A stretch of DNA of 23,874 bases from a virus: IMG/VR virus record IMGVR_UViG_3300020185_000263, positions 1 to 23,874 of that record; one strand, 5' to 3'. The notes beneath the pieces are model-generated. The model searched no databases. It saw only the letters and a program-made list of their open reading frames with translations, and was not told the origin of the DNA. The position numbers and the translations under genes are program-made. This document shows positions 1 through 10,908 of this stretch, piece after piece (the first letter of the stretch is position 1; every line of letters begins with the position of its first letter).

Positions 1-2182
1 CCCACCTTCTTCCTGTTCTAAGATTACTAGAGTCGAATCGATCGCTGGCTCCAGGAGAACCCATTAACACTGATTGGTTGCTGGAGTTATTGACTACAGA
101 CGAACTGCTCGGCGCGTTGATGATTGGGTTGATCGCTTGCTGTGCTCTTTCTTCTTGTTGAACTAAAGTTGTTGCATTTTCTGTCTTCATATCAGATAAT
201 GCTTCTCCTCTGCGGGTTTCCTCTACTCCAGGAGTCTCAATTACAACGTCTGATGAGGTGGGTGTAGAAGTATTTAATACGCTAGAACTCGTCGACGGTG
301 TACCAAATATATTTTGGAACGCCTTAGATGATTTTACTGGTGTGAGCCCAGAATTTCCTGATGTTACTGGATTAAGTCCAGAATTTCCTGATGTTACTGG
401 TGTAAGCCCAGCACCTAATTCTTGCGGGAATAGCTGGGTCACAAGCGCCCCCTGTTTTGCTTCTGGTGGTGCTGCATCAGAACTTGTTTCTGGTGGTTCT
501 GCTTCAGCAGTTATCTCACCTGTCTTGGGGTCCATTCCTGCATACTCATAAACAGAATCTGGCACTGCCTTAGCGATTAGATTTCCAGTAGAATACCACG
601 GAGCACTAGTATCAGGTGTAGGAAGAACCATCTGCAACACTTTCTTATAGAACCCATGAAGGGCGGACGAAACATCACCTAGAACATCCCCTAATCCCTT
701 TTCACCAGTGAATATGTCTTTAACATAATCAAAGGTCGCGGTTATAAAATCCCAAATTCCATTGTAAACACTTTGGAACAATTCTTTAAATGAAAAACTG
801 TCCAGCGCAGCTGCTTCGTCTTCTGCGCCAAGCAATGATAAAATACTGCTTACGGCGCTCTTCAGAAGATCGTACGGTGCCGCTACTATTGAACCAATCA
901 AATCAACAACAGAAGGTATTTGACCCTCGTCAAACCCGAAGTATGATATCAAAGAATCGACGGTGTCTCCGATGACGTCGAACAACGCTCCAGTTATCTT
1001 AGTGAAGGACTCGGTAAAGGAGAATCCTGATATCGCAGCTGCTGATTCATCAAATCCGAGTTTACCCGCAACCCAAGCGACCGCATCTTTAACTAGGTCG
1101 AGAGGTTTCGTGATTAATGATGTAAAGAATCCGTTGATTGCACCTTCAAGACCGCCTAGGATCCCACCTTCAGCGTACCCGTCGATCGCACCCTTAATAG
1201 TATCAAACAATGTCATAATAATAACTAACGGTGCGAAGATTTTACCAACTACACCAGCAACTTTGGCAACAGTAGCTCCAAACGTTTTTAAGTACCCGCC
1301 AATAGAACTGAACATTTTGCTGATTTGTCCGGCTGGACCAGAGAGCATACCTTTAATTGTTTTGGTTGCGTCGACGAAGGGCTTCGCCAGCGCTTTAATT
1401 CTTTCTCCCACATTAGTCAACGCTTTGAATAACGCGTTCTCTTTGGCTAGTGCAGAAATTCTAGCTCCAATATCAACAAAGAAAGTTTTAATTGTAGTGA
1501 TGAATGCTTTAATAGAAGTGCCGATCGAAGCCACTCTAGATTTCAAACTCGACTTCAGTTTTGAAAGATCTGGACCAAGGGCTTTAAATAACGCTTCTGC
1601 TGCTTTAATCTGACCGATTACCAATCCACCAAGAGTGCCTACTGCAGTTGCAATTGCAGTCCCGAAAGCGGTAATGATACCACCAAATCCCAAAAGGTCT
1701 CCTAAGCCCCAACTATCATCTTGGCCAGCTGGTGCTTGTTGGTTGGGTCCAGGAACCTTAACGTCTTCGCTGTCCTTTGCTCTTAATCGCGCCATGGCAG
1801 CTTCGTCCATGAAAGCGTCAAACTTTTTGTTCAACTGCATCAATTGATCAACAACTAGGGCTAGAAGTTTTTCACTGGCAGCTTCCACGCTCATTTCCGG
1901 TGCAGATAGCCTAGATTCATCAAGAGCGAATACCGCTCCGCCCTCTGCAGATTTGAGTTGTACCTGAGCTTGCCCCTTTGTGCCAGCATTCATTTCTGAA
2001 CTGGATTGAAGAACTTCTCCTGATTTGGTTTCGCCTTTAGCGTTAACATACTGGACAACATCCCCTGCCACCGGAGCAAAGGCTTCCTCTGCGCCCTGTC
2101 TGAGCGCAGCTAAAATTCCTTCGAACCTAGAACTATCCAGTTCTATTGACGGCTCGGATGATTGTCCTGTTATGTCTACCAT
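1..2182 (-). CDS. Tape-measure-like tail/baseplate hub protein (partial, C-terminus off the left edge)
   Basis: This frame is open from an ATG at 2182 to the window edge, giving at least 727 residues with no in-frame stop in the stretches I checked. Residues 1-140 are mixed alpha/charged. Residues about 160-190 (Gly/Ala-rich) and about 309-327 (VIIMTLF core) are hydrophobic and could span a membrane, followed by a Gly-rich stretch at about 335-360. The visible C-terminal part is Ser/Thr/Pro-rich and contains a short 10-residue tandem repeat. Alternating hydrophobic and amphipathic helices, great length, and a place directly after gp26 and its partner ORF are what a tail tape measure protein (functional counterpart of T4 gp29 or lambda H) shows; the family role is to set tube length and later enter the host envelope. 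The start follows the upstream stop TAA with no gap. I do not see residue-level proof of homology to gp29, so the role is inferred from context and composition. Confidence 0.65.
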   Translation of the reverse strand, partial: MVDITGQSSEPSIELDSSRFEGILAALRQGAEEAFAPVAGDVVQYVNAKGETKSGEVLQSSSEMNAGTKGQAQVQLKSAEGGAVFALDESRLSAPEMSVEAASEKLLALVVDQLMQLNKKFDAFMDEAAMARLRAKDSEDVKVPGPNQQAPAGQDDSWGLGDLLGFGGIITAFGTAIATAVGTLGGLVIGQIKAAEALFKALGPDLSKLKSSLKSRVASIGTSIKAFITTIKTFFVDIGARISALAKENALFKALTNVGERIKALAKPFVDATKTIKGMLSGPAGQISKMFSSIGGYLKTFGATVAKVAGVVGKIFAPLVIIMTLFDTIKGAIDGYAEGGILGGLEGAINGFFTSLITKPLDLVKDAVAWVAGKLGFDESAAAISGFSFTESFTKITGALFDVIGDTVDSLISYFGFDEGQIPSVVDLIGSIVAAPYDLLKSAVSSILSLLGAEDEAAALDSFSFKELFQSVYNGIWDFITATFDYVKDIFTGEKGLGDVLGDVSSALHGFYKKVLQMVLPTPDTSAPWYSTGNLIAKAVPDSVYEYAGMDPKTGEITAEAEPPETSSDAAPPEAKQGALVTQLFPQELGAGLTPVTSGNSGLNPVTSGNSGLTPVKSSKAFQNIFGTPSTSSSVLNTSTPTSSDVVIETPGVEETRRGEALSDMKTENATTLVQQEERAQQAINPIINAPSSSSVVNNSSNQSVLMGSPGASDRFDSSNLRTGRRW
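331..410. repeat. 30-bp tandem repeat inside the tape-measure-like gene
   Basis: A 23-base unit starting CCAGAATTTCCTGATG occurs at 348-370 and again at 378-400, a 30-bp period, with partial copies on both sides (332-347 and 401-410). On the coding (minus) strand it gives a 10-residue repeat of the type G-L-T/N-P-V-T-S-G-N-S. It lies in the low-complexity C-terminal linker, where copy number may vary between relatives. Confidence 0.85.
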
Positions 2183-2425
2183 TTATGTTCTCTTTTGTTC
2201 TCTTAGCTGATTTTCTTCCTTCACTCTTTCAATCAATAATGTAATATAAATTTCCCTCTCCCAAGGCATCATCATTTCCAACTCTGTTAGTGAATAGTGG
2301 TGACTCTTCATTAACTCAAAGTTTGTTCTGTAATGATTCACCAAACTATCATGGGAGAGGCATATTAGAAAAAATTCTGCATTCCCTCCAAGGTAATCAA
2401 GTTGTCTTTCTGGCAGCTTTCGCAC
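2183..2425 (-). CDS. Small ORF overlapping gp26 in the -1 frame; probable frameshift-expressed C-terminal extension of gp26 (tail assembly chaperone)
   Basis: The ORF is 80 residues if begun at the GTG at 2425, but no Shine-Dalgarno sequence precedes that GTG and it lies inside gp26. The meaningful part is the last 61 residues, after the gp26 stop: a helix-rich segment with the motif MMPWEREIYI followed by an amphipathic charged tail. A Pro-Trp motif before a helix recalls the C-terminal part of siphophage GT-type chaperones; in T4-like annotation this position is sometimes called gp51, which I cannot confirm, since T4 gp51 is far longer. It ends with TAA directly before the ATG of the tape-measure-like gene. 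The -1 relation to gp26, the slippery site at the junction and the lack of a good start suggest it is made mainly as a gp26 fusion. Independent initiation at an internal ATG is the alternative. Confidence 0.75.
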   Translation of the reverse strand: MRKLPERQLDYLGGNAEFFLICLSHDSLVNHYRTNFELMKSHHYSLTELEMMMPWEREIYITLLIERVKEENQLREQKRT

Positions 2426-3069
2426 GCGAAGGCAACATTGTGTTGTAACTTTGGTATAGTTGAGATGAACTCAGCTATGCCTTGAAACTGTTGTGTCGTC
2501 ATCGAGTCTAAGAAATTCGATAACTGTTCTGTTGACACGTCTGTGGCGTCAATTCTTTCTTCACCATGAATGATGCTATCGATACAGCTACCCGCTAAAT
2601 CAAACGCGGTCGAAGCTTTATCTGCGTCTTCTAAATCGTACTGAATGATTTTAGAATATGATGGATACTTGAGTTCTATAGAAATGTCGTCACCCAATTT
2701 GACCCGTCGTTCGACCAGAGGAACGTCAACCGCCAACTCGTCTAAAGGAATGTTAACTTCATTTTTATGTTCGCAGCTCGTGCATCCGACTAAGATCGTG
2801 CTGTTCTCACCAGAAGATTTTGCTCGAATTTGCGTAAACATATATTCTACATCAAACGTTGTCAAATCGTTTGGTCGAATTGTTTCGTCCACACAAGAAA
2901 TAATGGTATCGACGACAGCATTTAACGCAGACTTCACGTCCTTTGTTTCGAGCGCCATCAATAAGACCTTTTCCTCTCGTACGAGATATGGCCTAAACTT
3001 TATTTCCTTTCCAGAAGAAGGAATCCGTAAACTATATTTCGGACTACTGTTTAACTGTGGTAATGACAT
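2365..3069 (-). CDS. gp26: Baseplate hub / tail assembly protein gp26 (T4_baseplate family)
   Basis: This 234-residue protein resembles T4 gp26 (about 208 residues) and its marine T4-like relatives. Diagnostic parts are the N-terminal block (KYSLRIPSSGKEIKFRPYLV) followed by an EEK-L-L-M-A helix, and a C-terminus ending in FACESCQ then LEGMQNFF. Two CxxC pairs, C96/C99 and C216/C219, could bind a metal together. I chose the ATG at 3069 because GGAG lies 9 nt upstream; an in-frame TTG at 3084 would add five residues and lacks such a site. T4 gp26 is needed for hub assembly and its exact role is unclear. Position between a tube-fold gene and a tape-measure-like gene, plus the slippery site at its stop, fits a tail assembly chaperone like lambda G. 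Confidence 0.85.
   Translation of the reverse strand: MSLPQLNSSPKYSLRIPSSGKEIKFRPYLVREEKVLLMALETKDVKSALNAVVDTIISCVDETIRPNDLTTFDVEYMFTQIRAKSSGENSTILVGCTSCEHKNEVNIPLDELAVDVPLVERRVKLGDDISIELKYPSYSKIIQYDLEDADKASTAFDLAGSCIDSIIHGEERIDATDVSTEQLSNFLDSMTTQQFQGIAEFISTIPKLQHNVAFACESCQKDNLITLEGMQNFF
2368..2374 (-). other. Slippery heptamer T TTT TTC for -1 ribosomal frameshifting
   Basis: On the minus strand the last codons of gp26 are CAG AAT TTT TTC TAA. The phase is X XXY YYZ with X and Y = T and Z = C, so both the P-site and A-site tRNAs can re-pair after a -1 slip. The gp26 stop codon is the next codon, and the -1 frame continues open for 61 codons. A weak 5-bp inverted repeat (ATGAT/ATCAT) lies about 14 nt further on. 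Confidence 0.75.
2384..2389 (-). promoter_or_regulatory. Internal Shine-Dalgarno-like element (GGAGGG) upstream of the slippery site
   Basis: GGAGGG on the minus strand lies 9 nt upstream of the T TTT TTC heptamer, within the gp26 coding sequence and with no sensibly spaced start codon that leads to a useful ORF. In Escherichia coli dnaX an internal Shine-Dalgarno about 10 nt upstream of the slippery site stimulates -1 frameshifting. The spacing here is nearly the same, so I read it as a frameshift stimulator. Confidence 0.65.
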
Positions 3070-3113: not shown

Positions 3114-3806
3114 TTAGTTAGCCACGATTTCGGGCTTGTACTTACTGGTGTCATAAAATTCACCTTTCCAGTTTCGGTAAGTAAAAGTTACATTCACTTC
3201 CATTAATTCATTTTGTTCTCCTGTTAGATTAATTGCGCCCATTGCAACAGGATACGCTTCTATTAGAGAACAAGTGTATATCAATTCGTCTGGCGTCACG
3301 ATATCCAGATCTATTTCGGCGTCCCTTAGATTGATCGGTCCAATCTTCGGTAAAACATTTCTAATTGCGCTTGGTATTTTACGAAGAGCAGTCAATTGTT
3401 TATTGTATAAAGGAAACGATTTACCTTTCCTAAACACATCAATTTTGATATCCCGCACATACTCATTATAATATCCGATTTCGTATGTCTCTTGGTTTAC
3501 TGTGCTTTCGATCCATTCTTCAAAATATTTTCGCACTTTCATATCGTTTAACACGTAGAACGACATACTGACATCTTCGATAGCGTAACCGTTAGCGATG
3601 TTTTCTTTATTGATACCGATCTGCCTCTGCGTCGTCATCATCGTCTTTCCAGGTAACGCCGTAGCCTTACACAACAAATTCATCGCGCTGGCAGTTTCAC
3701 CACCACCCTCATTAATAATAGGCAATGATACTCTGTACATATTGGTTTGCGCTAAACCTTGTCCCTGAGCAACAGTAGCTTGAAAATCTTCTATTTTAAA
3801 AGTCAC
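3114..3806 (-). CDS. Tail-tube-fold protein (gp54 / gp19-type, tube initiator or tube)
   Basis: The 230-residue product has the hallmarks of the T4 tube protein fold: an N-terminal Q-G-x-G-L-A-x-x-N-M-Y-R-V-S-L-P segment (about 14-29), LLCKATALPGKTM (about 44-56), a central beta/helix block (VSMSFYVLNDMKVRKYFEEW) and a late segment ending VTFTYRNW that matches the last tube strands. gp19 is 163 residues and gp54 320, so length does not decide between them. Because the T4 tube gene normally sits by the sheath gene, and gp48 is encoded across the divergent spacer, a baseplate-proximal tube initiator like gp54 is more likely. The start is a GTG at 3806 overlapping the TAG of the previous gene by one base, with AAGGA 10 nt upstream. 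It lies 45 bases before gp26 in the same transcription unit. Confidence 0.75.
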   Translation of the reverse strand: MTFKIEDFQATVAQGQGLAQTNMYRVSLPIINEGGGETASAMNLLCKATALPGKTMMTTQRQIGINKENIANGYAIEDVSMSFYVLNDMKVRKYFEEWIESTVNQETYEIGYYNEYVRDIKIDVFRKGKSFPLYNKQLTALRKIPSAIRNVLPKIGPINLRDAEIDLDIVTPDELIYTCSLIEAYPVAMGAINLTGEQNELMEVNVTFTYRNWKGEFYDTSKYKPEIVAN

Positions 3807-4420: not shown

Positions 4421-4495
4421 TGGAGCGGGTAGGCAGATTCGAACTGCCATTTAAACGTTGGCAACGTCTGGTAATAACCATTATACGATACCCGC
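4421..4495 (-). tRNA. tRNA-Gly (anticodon GCC), CCA encoded
   Basis: The minus strand folds into a full cloverleaf: acceptor GCGGGTA with TACCCGC, a short D stem (GTA/TAC) with a GG-containing loop, anticodon stem AGACG/CGTTT with loop TTGCCAA (anticodon GCC), T stem GGCAG/CTGCC with loop TTCGAAT, discriminator T and an encoded 3' CCA. A U73 discriminator is usual for bacterial tRNA-Gly. It reads GGC and GGU codons, frequent in the Gly-rich structural genes here. It lies between the gp4-like gene and the 194-residue gene in the same orientation, so it would be cut from a late transcript. Confidence 0.95.
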
Positions 4496-4504
4496 CATAT
4501 GACT

Positions 4505-4519
4505 TTATTTATAATGATT
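4505..4519. repeat. 15-bp direct repeat, copy 2, flanking the tRNA gene
   Basis: This copy is identical to 4396-4410. It overlaps the last codons and stop of the gp4-like gene, so here the repeat is also coding sequence. Confidence 0.9.
4506..4513 (-). promoter_or_regulatory. T4-type late promoter box TATAAATA (distal copy, upstream of the tRNA)
   Basis: A perfect minus-strand TATAAATA overlaps the stop codon of the gp4-like gene. Initiation about six bases downstream (near 4500) would lie just ahead of the mature tRNA 5' end at 4495, so this box is well placed to drive the tRNA and the downstream leftward genes. Confidence 0.65.
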
Positions 4520-5018
4520 TTTTAGCTTTTCTTTTCTTGTATGGAGCCATGGGTTTGAGTTTCTTCATTGGCTTCGGTTGTTTGGGAAGAATACCCATCA
4601 ATCGCAATTCGATTTCGGTCCAAATCTCGAATCGCCACCCTTTATCCTTGCAGTATTCTGTCGCAGCTTCCCACTTATTCATATTCTTAACATACGTCAG
4701 CGCTTCGGTGATTAGCTTCTTCGTTTTACGAGTACCTGACGGCGGCTTGGTCTCTTTGTTTGGCTTCACTTCAATCAAGCTGGTCTTTCCTGTGTTCCAA
4801 GTGACGACGAAGTCTGGGAAGTATCTGTGATGTCGGTGATCCGCGTCATATAAGTAAGGTATGACGATTTCCTCGCTAGACCAAGAAACCACTTCTGGCG
4901 ATTTATCGAAATATAACATACAATATTTTTCCCAGCCACTCCTATAGACAACCTTGTCTGGATCGCCTTTGTACTTCTCTTTGTTCTTTACTTTGTATAT
5001 TCCCTGATATGTCTTCAT
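4509..5018 (-). CDS. gp4: Head completion protein, gp4-like (TnsA-type nuclease fold)
   Basis: The 169-residue protein is close in length to T4 gp4/gp50 (about 150). It has YRSGWEKYCMLYFDKSPEVV (about 25-44), WSSEEIVIPY (about 46-55), then YFPDFVV and SLIEVKPNKETKPP (about 66-90). The D and E-x-K of the PDF...EVK pair are the metal-binding residues of the restriction-endonuclease-like fold shared with TnsA N-terminal domains. The C-terminal tail is strongly basic (KKLKPMAPYKKRKAKK), which suits DNA contact. In T4 this protein finishes the DNA-filled head before tail joining. It is the first gene of the leftward unit, 31 bases from a late-promoter box. Confidence 0.85.
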   Translation of the reverse strand: MKTYQGIYKVKNKEKYKGDPDKVVYRSGWEKYCMLYFDKSPEVVSWSSEEIVIPYLYDADHRHHRYFPDFVVTWNTGKTSLIEVKPNKETKPPSGTRKTKKLITEALTYVKNMNKWEAATEYCKDKGWRFEIWTEIELRLMGILPKQPKPMKKLKPMAPYKKRKAKKSL

Positions 5019-8311: not shown

Positions 8312-9181
8312 ATGAGAGCAATACCGACAGAATATTATGGAGACGAGACTCGTTGGTTTGTCGCGGTTGTCGTTAATTCTACTCCACCTCCAGGTCTAGA
8401 AGGTAGAGTACGGGTCAGGATTTATGGTGTACATACTCCATATACAGGCGACATCCTCGAATCAGATTTACCGTGGGCTCAAGTGTTGATCCCTTCCACG
8501 GAAGGTGGTGTTTCTGGTTTTGGGAGAATCCCACAAGTGACCGCTGGGTCTTTTGTGTTTGGTATCTTTATGGACGGGAAATCTTCACAGCTTCCTCTTG
8601 TTCTTGGATCGATGCCACATATTGAGGTGCCAACCTCTTCACAAATCAAATTAAAACAAGAGGATTATTCTTTCGATTATTATCAAGAAAGACAGGTCAA
8701 TTTCCTTGTGCAACCTTTAGCGAATGACGGAAACCAATTAGGAGAAATCACAGAACGAAGAAGCCAGTGTATTAAATTCTTCATTGACAATGGTTATACA
8801 TTAGTCCAAGCAGCAGGAATAACTGGTAATCTACAAAGTTCGAGCGGGTTTGAACTATACAAATCAATTGAAAGCACAGATCAGGGAATTGCTTCTTGGA
8901 GCACCATCAAAGAAACCCGTTCTAGATTTGACAATCTAGTTGAATTCTCAGGAAAGTATGACCCCTCAAAAACATGGAGATCTTTCTCTTGCCAACTACA
9001 ATTCGTCTTACACGAATTGCGCTCAGATTTTTCTCTCGCCAATTCTAAACTAAAACGAGCGCATACACTAGATGGTGAGAATGGCTCGGTACAAATATTT
9101 TCTAAATACTATCTAAAACGAACCGTACTGAAAAACGCTTTGTCGTTGGGTCAGTTATCATATGATGAGGCGACACAATAA
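8312..9181 (+). CDS. gp5: gp5-like hub protein: OB fold plus degenerate tail-lysozyme domain
   Basis: Residues about 14-105 match the gp5 N-terminal OB fold: RWFVAVVVN, then GRVRVRIYGVHTPYTGDI, LPWAQVLIPSTEG and a closing LPLVLGSMP. Residues about 125-285 look like the phage tail lysozyme-type family rather than the T4 lysozyme domain of T4 gp5: an RRSQCIKFFIDNGYT helix, QAAGITGNL, then GIASWS and a conserved C-terminal helix pair around QLQFVLHELRSDF. Where active members have GNL-x-x-E-S, this protein has Ser at residue 177, and GIAQW is changed to GIASW, so hydrolase activity is doubtful. The beta-helix of T4 gp5 is absent here and appears as a separate gene at 10908. The stop overlaps the next ATG (TAATG). 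Confidence 0.8.
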   Translation: MRAIPTEYYGDETRWFVAVVVNSTPPPGLEGRVRVRIYGVHTPYTGDILESDLPWAQVLIPSTEGGVSGFGRIPQVTAGSFVFGIFMDGKSSQLPLVLGSMPHIEVPTSSQIKLKQEDYSFDYYQERQVNFLVQPLANDGNQLGEITERRSQCIKFFIDNGYTLVQAAGITGNLQSSSGFELYKSIESTDQGIASWSTIKETRSRFDNLVEFSGKYDPSKTWRSFSCQLQFVLHELRSDFSLANSKLKRAHTLDGENGSVQIFSKYYLKRTVLKNALSLGQLSYDEATQ

Positions 9182-10908
9182 TGCCAATTAATAAGAATTT
9201 GTTACAGTCTAAGGTTCAGGACGTCAGTAAAGCGGCACAGCAAAGTTATTCTGATGTCACTAAACAGTCTGTCGTAAGTACTACTGATTTGACGCAGTCG
9301 ACACAAACTAATATCGGGGCGGTGGCTAACCAGACTCTTGGTGGTATTCAGAGCCTAGCTTCTTCTTTTAGCGCAGCTGTTCCCGCTAAAGTTACAGTAG
9401 ACGTTGCCGCGTTAGAAAATAGCGTCAACGATTCAATGAATACGTTCGCTAGTACTCTTACTTCGGGTGGTAAAAAAATATCACTTTCTTACACGGTGGA
9501 TTCTGATGGAACAACAATACTGGACACCGTTTCTCTGGATGATGTTCCTGAAACCAAAACTGTTGGTGAAAAACTGTCTGGTATAACCGGAAACAATATC
9601 GAACCTGGGTTTGCTCATAATATTACTACTAACGGCACACCTGCAGGGATAACTTCTTCTCTCAGTAAGATAGAAGGAAAGGTTGGCGCTTTCAGTAGTG
9701 TCAGCGCGATAAACGAATTGGCTAGTGAAGCGCAAACAGTCGCTGATGCTTCCTATGATGCAAATGATACCAATATCTTTGCAACCGCCGCTCGTGATCA
9801 AGTTACTGCCGGTATCGCAGACGTTGCTACACTCATACCAACTGGTGCTGGTGTTTCCAATACTGGCCTCTCAAGTACTCTAGCCAGTATCACTGGCTCG
9901 GCGGGTGATTTAATTCTGAACTCTGTATTAGGCTCTGTTGCCAGCTCTCTGCAAACAGGATCTCTTGGTTCTCTATTCAAAGAAACACTAAACAAGAAGC
10001 TCAAGGGCAATGACCTTGGGTTGATGCAAGGGTTTTTGGAATCAATTACTTCAGACGCCAAAAGAGTATTAGATGGCCTTGGTGGTGATTTAAGTGATGC
10101 AGAAAAAGTAAAGGTTATTGAATTATCGCAAGGTTCTTCTGCAGAGTTCGAGCAAGCTGTTGATCTGGTGGCTGAGAAGACGGGAAAATCTCGCTCAGAA
10201 GTAAGAGCATCTTTAGGCGAACTGAACACCACTATTGCGGGCACCACAGTAGTTTCTATCTCTAACTCGGCCTTTTCTGATCCATTTTCTATCGGTAGAG
10301 AAGCAAACACTTGGAAAAAGGGAGAAGGTTCAAAGATATTTTCTTATGTGAGTTCATATGAAGAATTAGAAGCAGAGATGAAACAAGCGTCTAGAGAAAT
10401 CACAGAAGTTGTCACTCACTGGACTGATACTTACTCTAATAAGAATATCGGATCTGAAGAACTACACGATATGCATAACGCTCTCGGGTTGAACGGAATC
10501 GCTTATCATTATGTTATTCGAAGAGACGGTTCGTTACAGCGAGGTCGACCATTGAAGAACACTGGCCAACATGCACCTGTTAACGATCATGATAAATATA
10601 GCATAGGAATCGCTTTTGTTGGTGGGTATAATTGCCCAACAGGCACCCCAAACCCCGAAGCATATTTGTCGGCACAATCATTGACGAGAAGTCAAATGAA
10701 TACCTTTGAGATGTTCTGTAGAGCGTTTTATTCCTCTCGACCTGGAGGACAAATACTAGGTCACAACGACATAGACTTGAAGGAGAATGACCCTGGGTTT
10801 GATGTGATCGAATATGTGAAGACAGTGTTTAATAAACATTCGGTCTTTACTGACACATTATCGCAGGGACCATTGAGTGCCGCAGAATTGAATAAGAGCA
10901 CATTATAA
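9181..10908 (+). CDS. Baseplate-associated N-acetylmuramoyl-L-alanine amidase (Amidase_2 type)
   Basis: The 575-residue protein has a long N-terminal part (about 1-385), Ala/Ser/Thr-rich with heptad-like and Gly-rich stretches and no recognised domain, followed by an Amidase_2 domain at about 390-560. Expected zinc ligands are present: H413 in VVTHW, H528 in GHNDID and D537 in the DPGFD segment. The AYHYVIRRDG segment (H443) matches the conserved G-x-x-H/Y-F/Y-V-I-x-R-D-G strand. The family cleaves the bond between muramic acid and L-alanine. Lying between the OB-fold and beta-helix genes with 1-bp TAATG overlaps on both sides, it is probably a hub or spike component that opens the cell wall during injection. 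The N-terminal part may serve assembly. It does not look like a free endolysin, as no holin is adjacent. Confidence 0.8.
   Translation: MPINKNLLQSKVQDVSKAAQQSYSDVTKQSVVSTTDLTQSTQTNIGAVANQTLGGIQSLASSFSAAVPAKVTVDVAALENSVNDSMNTFASTLTSGGKKISLSYTVDSDGTTILDTVSLDDVPETKTVGEKLSGITGNNIEPGFAHNITTNGTPAGITSSLSKIEGKVGAFSSVSAINELASEAQTVADASYDANDTNIFATAARDQVTAGIADVATLIPTGAGVSNTGLSSTLASITGSAGDLILNSVLGSVASSLQTGSLGSLFKETLNKKLKGNDLGLMQGFLESITSDAKRVLDGLGGDLSDAEKVKVIELSQGSSAEFEQAVDLVAEKTGKSRSEVRASLGELNTTIAGTTVVSISNSAFSDPFSIGREANTWKKGEGSKIFSYVSSYEELEAEMKQASREITEVVTHWTDTYSNKNIGSEELHDMHNALGLNGIAYHYVIRRDGSLQRGRPLKNTGQHAPVNDHDKYSIGIAFVGGYNCPTGTPNPEAYLSAQSLTRSQMNTFEMFCRAFYSSRPGGQILGHNDIDLKENDPGFDVIEYVKTVFNKHSVFTDTLSQGPLSAAELNKSTL

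Follow-up and report, generated by a model that had tools for sequence, protein, structure and literature searches.

A very likely programmed −1 ribosomal frameshift at the end of gp26, predicted to yield short and long tail assembly chaperones in a marine T4-like phage

In a marine T4-like phage, gp26 is overlapped at its 3′ end by a small ORF in another frame. The question raised by this locus is whether that ORF is a gene in its own right or the second half of a product begun in gp26. The locus lies in 23,874 nt of IMG/VR record IMGVR_UViG_3300020185_000263, the whole stretch being referred to here as the window. Phage lambda makes G and, as a minority product, the −1 fusion GT, slipping at the heptamer G GGA AAG. 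In an earlier note on the window, it was proposed that gp26 is joined to the next ORF by a −1 frameshift, and that gp26 and its fusion are the equivalents of G and GT. The first proposal is supported here by the heptamer and its phase, wobble selection, missing starts, a Shine–Dalgarno (SD)-like element, RNA structure, and gapless alignment with gp51, and the second by the predicted fold and the position before the tape measure gene. It is very likely that a programmed −1 ribosomal frameshift yields a short and a long tail assembly chaperone from this locus.

The 3′ end of gp26 (minus strand, 3069..2365) reads CAG AAT TTT TTC TAA, with T TTT TTC in phase directly before the stop and GGAGGG upstream, as the earlier note had described (Table 1). 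The overlapping ORF is, as also claimed there, exactly in the −1 frame, and the predicted fusion is 295 aa with the junction ...GMQNFF-LICLSHDSL.... The gp26 protein matches PF12322 (T4_baseplate, E 1.2e-60, 205 bits against a curated cut-off of 24.5) and phrog_150 (baseplate hub, E 6.6e-62). The −1 extension matches phrog_634 (baseplate hub assembly catalyst, gp51, E 1.4e-24) and also the C-terminal part of phrog_150 (E 2.6e-8); therefore some proteins of the phrog_150 family already hold both parts in a single chain. A tape measure gene comes next: the ORF starting at 2182 adjoins the stop of the −1 ORF at 2183, which is the position of a chaperone pair, and matches the tail length tape measure families phrog_1535, phrog_4200, and phrog_1272 (E 2e-7 to 5e-7). 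The neighbour on the other side, in the gp54 position, has the same gene order in Va3, C48C1, and phiM12.

Table 1. Features of the gp26 locus and its proposed frameshift signal (window positions).
Feature	Position	Strand	Basis or remark
gp26, predicted short tail assembly chaperone (G-like)	2365..3069	-	234 aa; PF12322, phrog_150, predicted fold
gp26 stop codon TAA, bypassed by the proposed frameshift	2365..2367	-	Sequence read
Slippery heptamer T TTT TTC	2368..2374 (2374-2368)	-	In phase, directly before gp26 stop
SD-like GGAGGG	2384..2389 (2389-2384)	-	Exactly 9 nt 5′ of heptamer
−1 frame extension (putative T-like domain), 61 codons and stop	2183..2368	-	phrog_634, phrog_150 C-terminal part, T4 gp51 alignment
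Overlapping −1 ORF, 80 aa from GTG at 2425	2425-2183	-	ORF reading
5′ arm CCUCUCCCA of predicted long-range RNA stem	2352..2360 (2360-2352)	-	7 nt 3′ of heptamer
3′ arm UGGGAGAGG of predicted long-range RNA stem	2255..2263 (2263-2255)	-	Inside PWERE codons
Tape measure protein gene	3..2182	-	Directly downstream; runs off contig
Upstream neighbour, tail tube / baseplate-tail tube initiator like (gp54 position)	3114..3806	-	phrog_45 tail tube, E 6.5e-37

Slippery runs of this kind are scarce in the window. TTTTTTY is depleted (9 found against 25.4 expected), and of these copies only that at 2368 lies on a coding strand. There are two in-phase T6N heptamers in the 7,782 codons of the window's genes, that of gp26 being 2 codons from the stop. 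Comparison was made with a first sample of 80 IMG/VR loci retrieved by gp26, and then with 80 close to cyanophage S-PM2, together with named phages. In the first 80, the second ORF is in the −1 frame wherever the sequence spans the junction. The alignment of the junction across relatives, proposed as a check in the earlier note, shows T TTT TTN in phase, 2–4 codons before the stop, and the second ORF in the −1 frame, in all 167 complete loci, which include cyanophages and Vibrio, Cronobacter, Aeromonas, Delftia, rhizobial, and pelagiphage relatives. The scan also gave a few apparent exceptions. In Mosig, a pelagiphage, the heptamer is retained and lies 10 codons before a stop that has drifted downstream. 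Cronus is T4-like and encodes two genes, and a pair of Ackermannviridae-like Vibrio phages carry CTTTTT.

All 73 nonredundant loci have T immediately before the first TTT, with the codon that ends in this T encoding Ser, Asp, Asn, Ala, or Gly. The joint chance of this wobble T and a P-site TTT is about 10^-12.6 over 37 clusters (70 % identity; background from the codon usage of the same genes); the loci share ancestry, therefore naive probabilities such as this one overstate the significance, the direction being clear. Judged from these comparisons, the slip site is under strong selection.

Selection is seen on the other two parts of the signal as well. Upstream of the heptamer, 90 % of 73 relatives have an SD-like match 4 nt or longer; the figure for control positions is 26 %. 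Within the element, Glu is encoded by GAG in 33 out of 47, compared with 28 % elsewhere. This enrichment is in part due to conservation of Glu-Gly, the mean match length being 4.41 against 4.14 on synonymous resampling.

Downstream of the heptamer, 120 nt of RNA fold far more stably than synonymous shuffles (mean z -2.28), compared with -0.43, 0.07, and -0.32 for three control windows within gp26. In the lineage of the window phage, the fold is a long-range stem in which CCUCUCCCA pairs with UGGGAGAGG. The 5′ arm finds its partner either in the PWERE codons, about 88 nt away, or in the TEIE codons, about 66 nt away, and a perfect stem with one or other of these sites is present in 23 of the 30 nonredundant lineage members, against 0.92 expected from synonymous resampling. 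Compensatory changes are seen at columns 8/113 and 11/110 (C-G to U-A); the seven members that use the alternative partner show one at 7/92 (G-C to C-G). The arginine codon is CGN in five out of seven alternative-partner members and AGR in 23 out of 23 other members of the lineage. Most of the remaining loci, largely cyanophage-type, have a local hairpin instead (45-nt z of -2.34, compared with -0.35 in the window's lineage). The junction matched no family in Rfam. From these patterns the downstream fold probably helps the slip. It is somewhat more probable than an even chance that the frameshift is driven by a fast-evolving downstream RNA, in which this lineage uses one 5′ arm with two alternative partners, many cyanophage-type relatives use a local hairpin, and the arginine codon freed by a partner switch drifts from AGR to CGN. 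To our knowledge, long-range, partner-switching stimulators are no described feature of phage chaperone frameshifts, and the conserved stem may be new. The selected stems offer ready natural variants for tests of frameshift stimulation. Both the stem and the relationship to gp51 were absent from the earlier note.

In T4, both gp26 and gp51 match PF12322. T4 gp51 has a C-terminal domain, the same domain as the −1 extension in the window, whereas T4 gp26 is without one. Aligned with T4-type gp51, the predicted fusions run gapless across the junction, which also lies within a few residues of the end of T4-type gp26. A short and a long form are thus represented on both sides, by gp26 and its conserved −1 extension on one and, for the long form, by gp51 as the in-frame counterpart on the other. 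On these alignments, T4 gp51 corresponds to the fusion, encoded in a single frame, and is paralogous to T4 gp26. T4-type gp26 genes keep Phe-Phe, but the heptamer is absent (GAG TTC TTT). Together with the alignments, this indicates that T4 and its relatives use two genes, whereas the window phage, cyanophages, and many others would use one gene and a frameshift. T4-type gp26, T4-type gp51, and the frameshift-type genes are separate in an unrooted tree with long branches.

Three other explanations can be weighed against this evidence. The records of S-PM2, Mosig, nt-1, EniLVp02, phiM12, C48C1, and others list the second ORF as a gene of its own, and it could be a small gp51 gene with its own initiation or with reinitiation after the gp26 stop. 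The window has a GTG at 2425 that opens the −1 ORF before the slip, and this is the single upstream start, as the earlier note had found. However, the window is one of only seven loci with such a candidate; in 66 of the 73 nonredundant relatives there is no ATG, GTG, or TTG in the −1 frame before the slip. Starting later, for example at the TTG and GTG within about 12 codons past the slip in the window, would omit conserved residues. A separate gene would also leave the conserved heptamer and the downstream stems unexplained, and T4 gp51 aligns over the whole of the fusion, so that this explanation is judged very unlikely.

The −1 product could instead be made by RNA polymerase slipping on the T run, with no slip by the ribosome. 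The signal is indeed a T run, of T7 or longer in 35 of the 167 loci, but in 124, including the window's, it is T6 followed by C only, and T6 is short for known bacterial transcriptional slippage. In addition, the in-phase TTT TTN, the SD-like element, and the RNA structure at ribosomal spacing are all selected, which makes slippage during transcription very unlikely as well. Lastly, the T run might be a functionless accident beside the stop, with gp26 acting alone. Conservation of Phe-Phe, T4 gp26 included, partly forces a T-rich end to the gene; against this, T4-type gp26 has Phe-Phe without the heptamer, frameshift-type genes always have NNT TTT TTN, and the −1 frame domain (57–69 aa in the relatives) is conserved at the protein level. 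Chance is hardly credible as the explanation. All three were set aside on the evidence given for each, and ribosomal frameshifting is the preferred reading.

The proposal that gp26 and the fusion correspond to G and GT also draws on structure. In an AlphaFold2 model of gp26 (pLDDT 88), the N-terminal domain resembles 3fgx (Z 8.1), the HK97 tail assembly chaperone gp13 (2ob9, Z 7.5), and 3klu (Z 7.3), after which Z drops to 4.4 and then 2.9. Foldseek E-values for the structural matches are weak (0.5–1.5), with the best Z near 8. The chaperone fold is therefore a predicted one, for the N-terminal domain only. The likeness to HK97 gp13 covers about residues 1–90; unlike gp13, gp26 has an added second helical and strand half and two Cys-rich hairpins. 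The model has two similar halves, in each of which helices lead into a Cys-rich strand hairpin (about 71–108 and 180–228), which suggests an internal duplication. Sequence searches for solved relatives of gp26 or T4 gp51 found none, and a Foldseek search with a model of T4-type gp51, whose underlying alignment had only 7 rows, yielded no informative match.

Under the proposed mechanism, most ribosomes would terminate at the TAA and release gp26, the short, G-like form. A minority would pause with TTT in the P site and TTC in the A site, both Phe codons, aided by the SD-like GGAGGG upstream and by the RNA stem that starts 7 nt downstream. On slipping back one base, the two Phe tRNAs would re-pair with TTT TTT, and reading would continue as CTA ATA TGC and so on, giving the 295-aa fusion as the long, GT-like form. 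By analogy with lambda G and GT, the two forms would coat the tape measure protein, the product of the gene that follows, and act as its chaperones during tail assembly; in T4, gp26 and gp51 would be the same two forms made from separate paralogous genes. The slip, its rate, and its stimulation by the stem are what we infer from the conserved signal.

Several known systems share parts of this arrangement. As in lambda, there would be a short chaperone and a minority −1 fusion immediately 5′ of the tape measure gene, but the heptamers differ, and the window phage has in addition the SD-like element, the downstream RNA structure, a longer gp26, and putative zinc-ribbon cysteines. The frameshift signal of Escherichia coli dnaX consists of an SD-like element, a slippery heptamer, and a downstream RNA structure, and the same three elements, with the heptamer in phase, are found here; unlike dnaX, the stem in this lineage closes an 88-nt stretch, and the gene, heptamer, and outcome differ. 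T4 itself differs in that gp26 and gp51 are two divergently transcribed genes, with gp51 apart from the tape measure gene 29.

Vladimirov, Gautam and Davidson (2022, Virology 566:9-15) reportedly named the T4-like tail assembly chaperone genes, of the gp26/gp51 family to which the gene in the window also belongs. A passage in a paper citing that work refers to poly-T slip signals as known in T4-like short chaperone genes (PMC12846349), and a passage in another citing paper mentions that some T4-like phages have separate short and long chaperone genes (PMC10885494); this kind of system is therefore already known. T4 gp51 has appeared in the literature as an essential protein whose function was not known (PMC3004832), and cyanophage and marine vibriophage gp51 was reported to be without about 200 N-terminal residues (Sullivan et al., 2010; PMC3037559). 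Those residues would be missing because a truncated gp51 gene is just the second half of a chaperone made by frameshifting, which would account together for the role of T4 gp51 and the cyanophage truncation. We inspected 16 phage records from the frameshift side (non-T4-type). None has the two halves annotated as one joined gene, and in two, ACG-2014d and LPCS28, the second half is left unannotated. Correction would mend the annotation in several hundred marine phage genomes.

In the two Ackermannviridae-like Vibrio phages, K364 and 1.255.O (L176 and L180), the gp26-family gene ending in CTTTTT is accompanied by a −1 ORF with an MPWHL motif, and the stretches read have no annotated tape measure gene immediately after it; possibly these have the same frameshift at a weaker site. 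Elsewhere in the window, a tRNA-Gly (gcc) gene (4421-4495, minus strand) lies between a gp2-like gene and the ORF at 4509-5018. A 575-aa protein of the structural region (9181-10908, plus strand) has a C-terminal amidase domain (phrog_822, E 4e-27, residues 400–559) and is, on this match, probably a tail-associated lysin.
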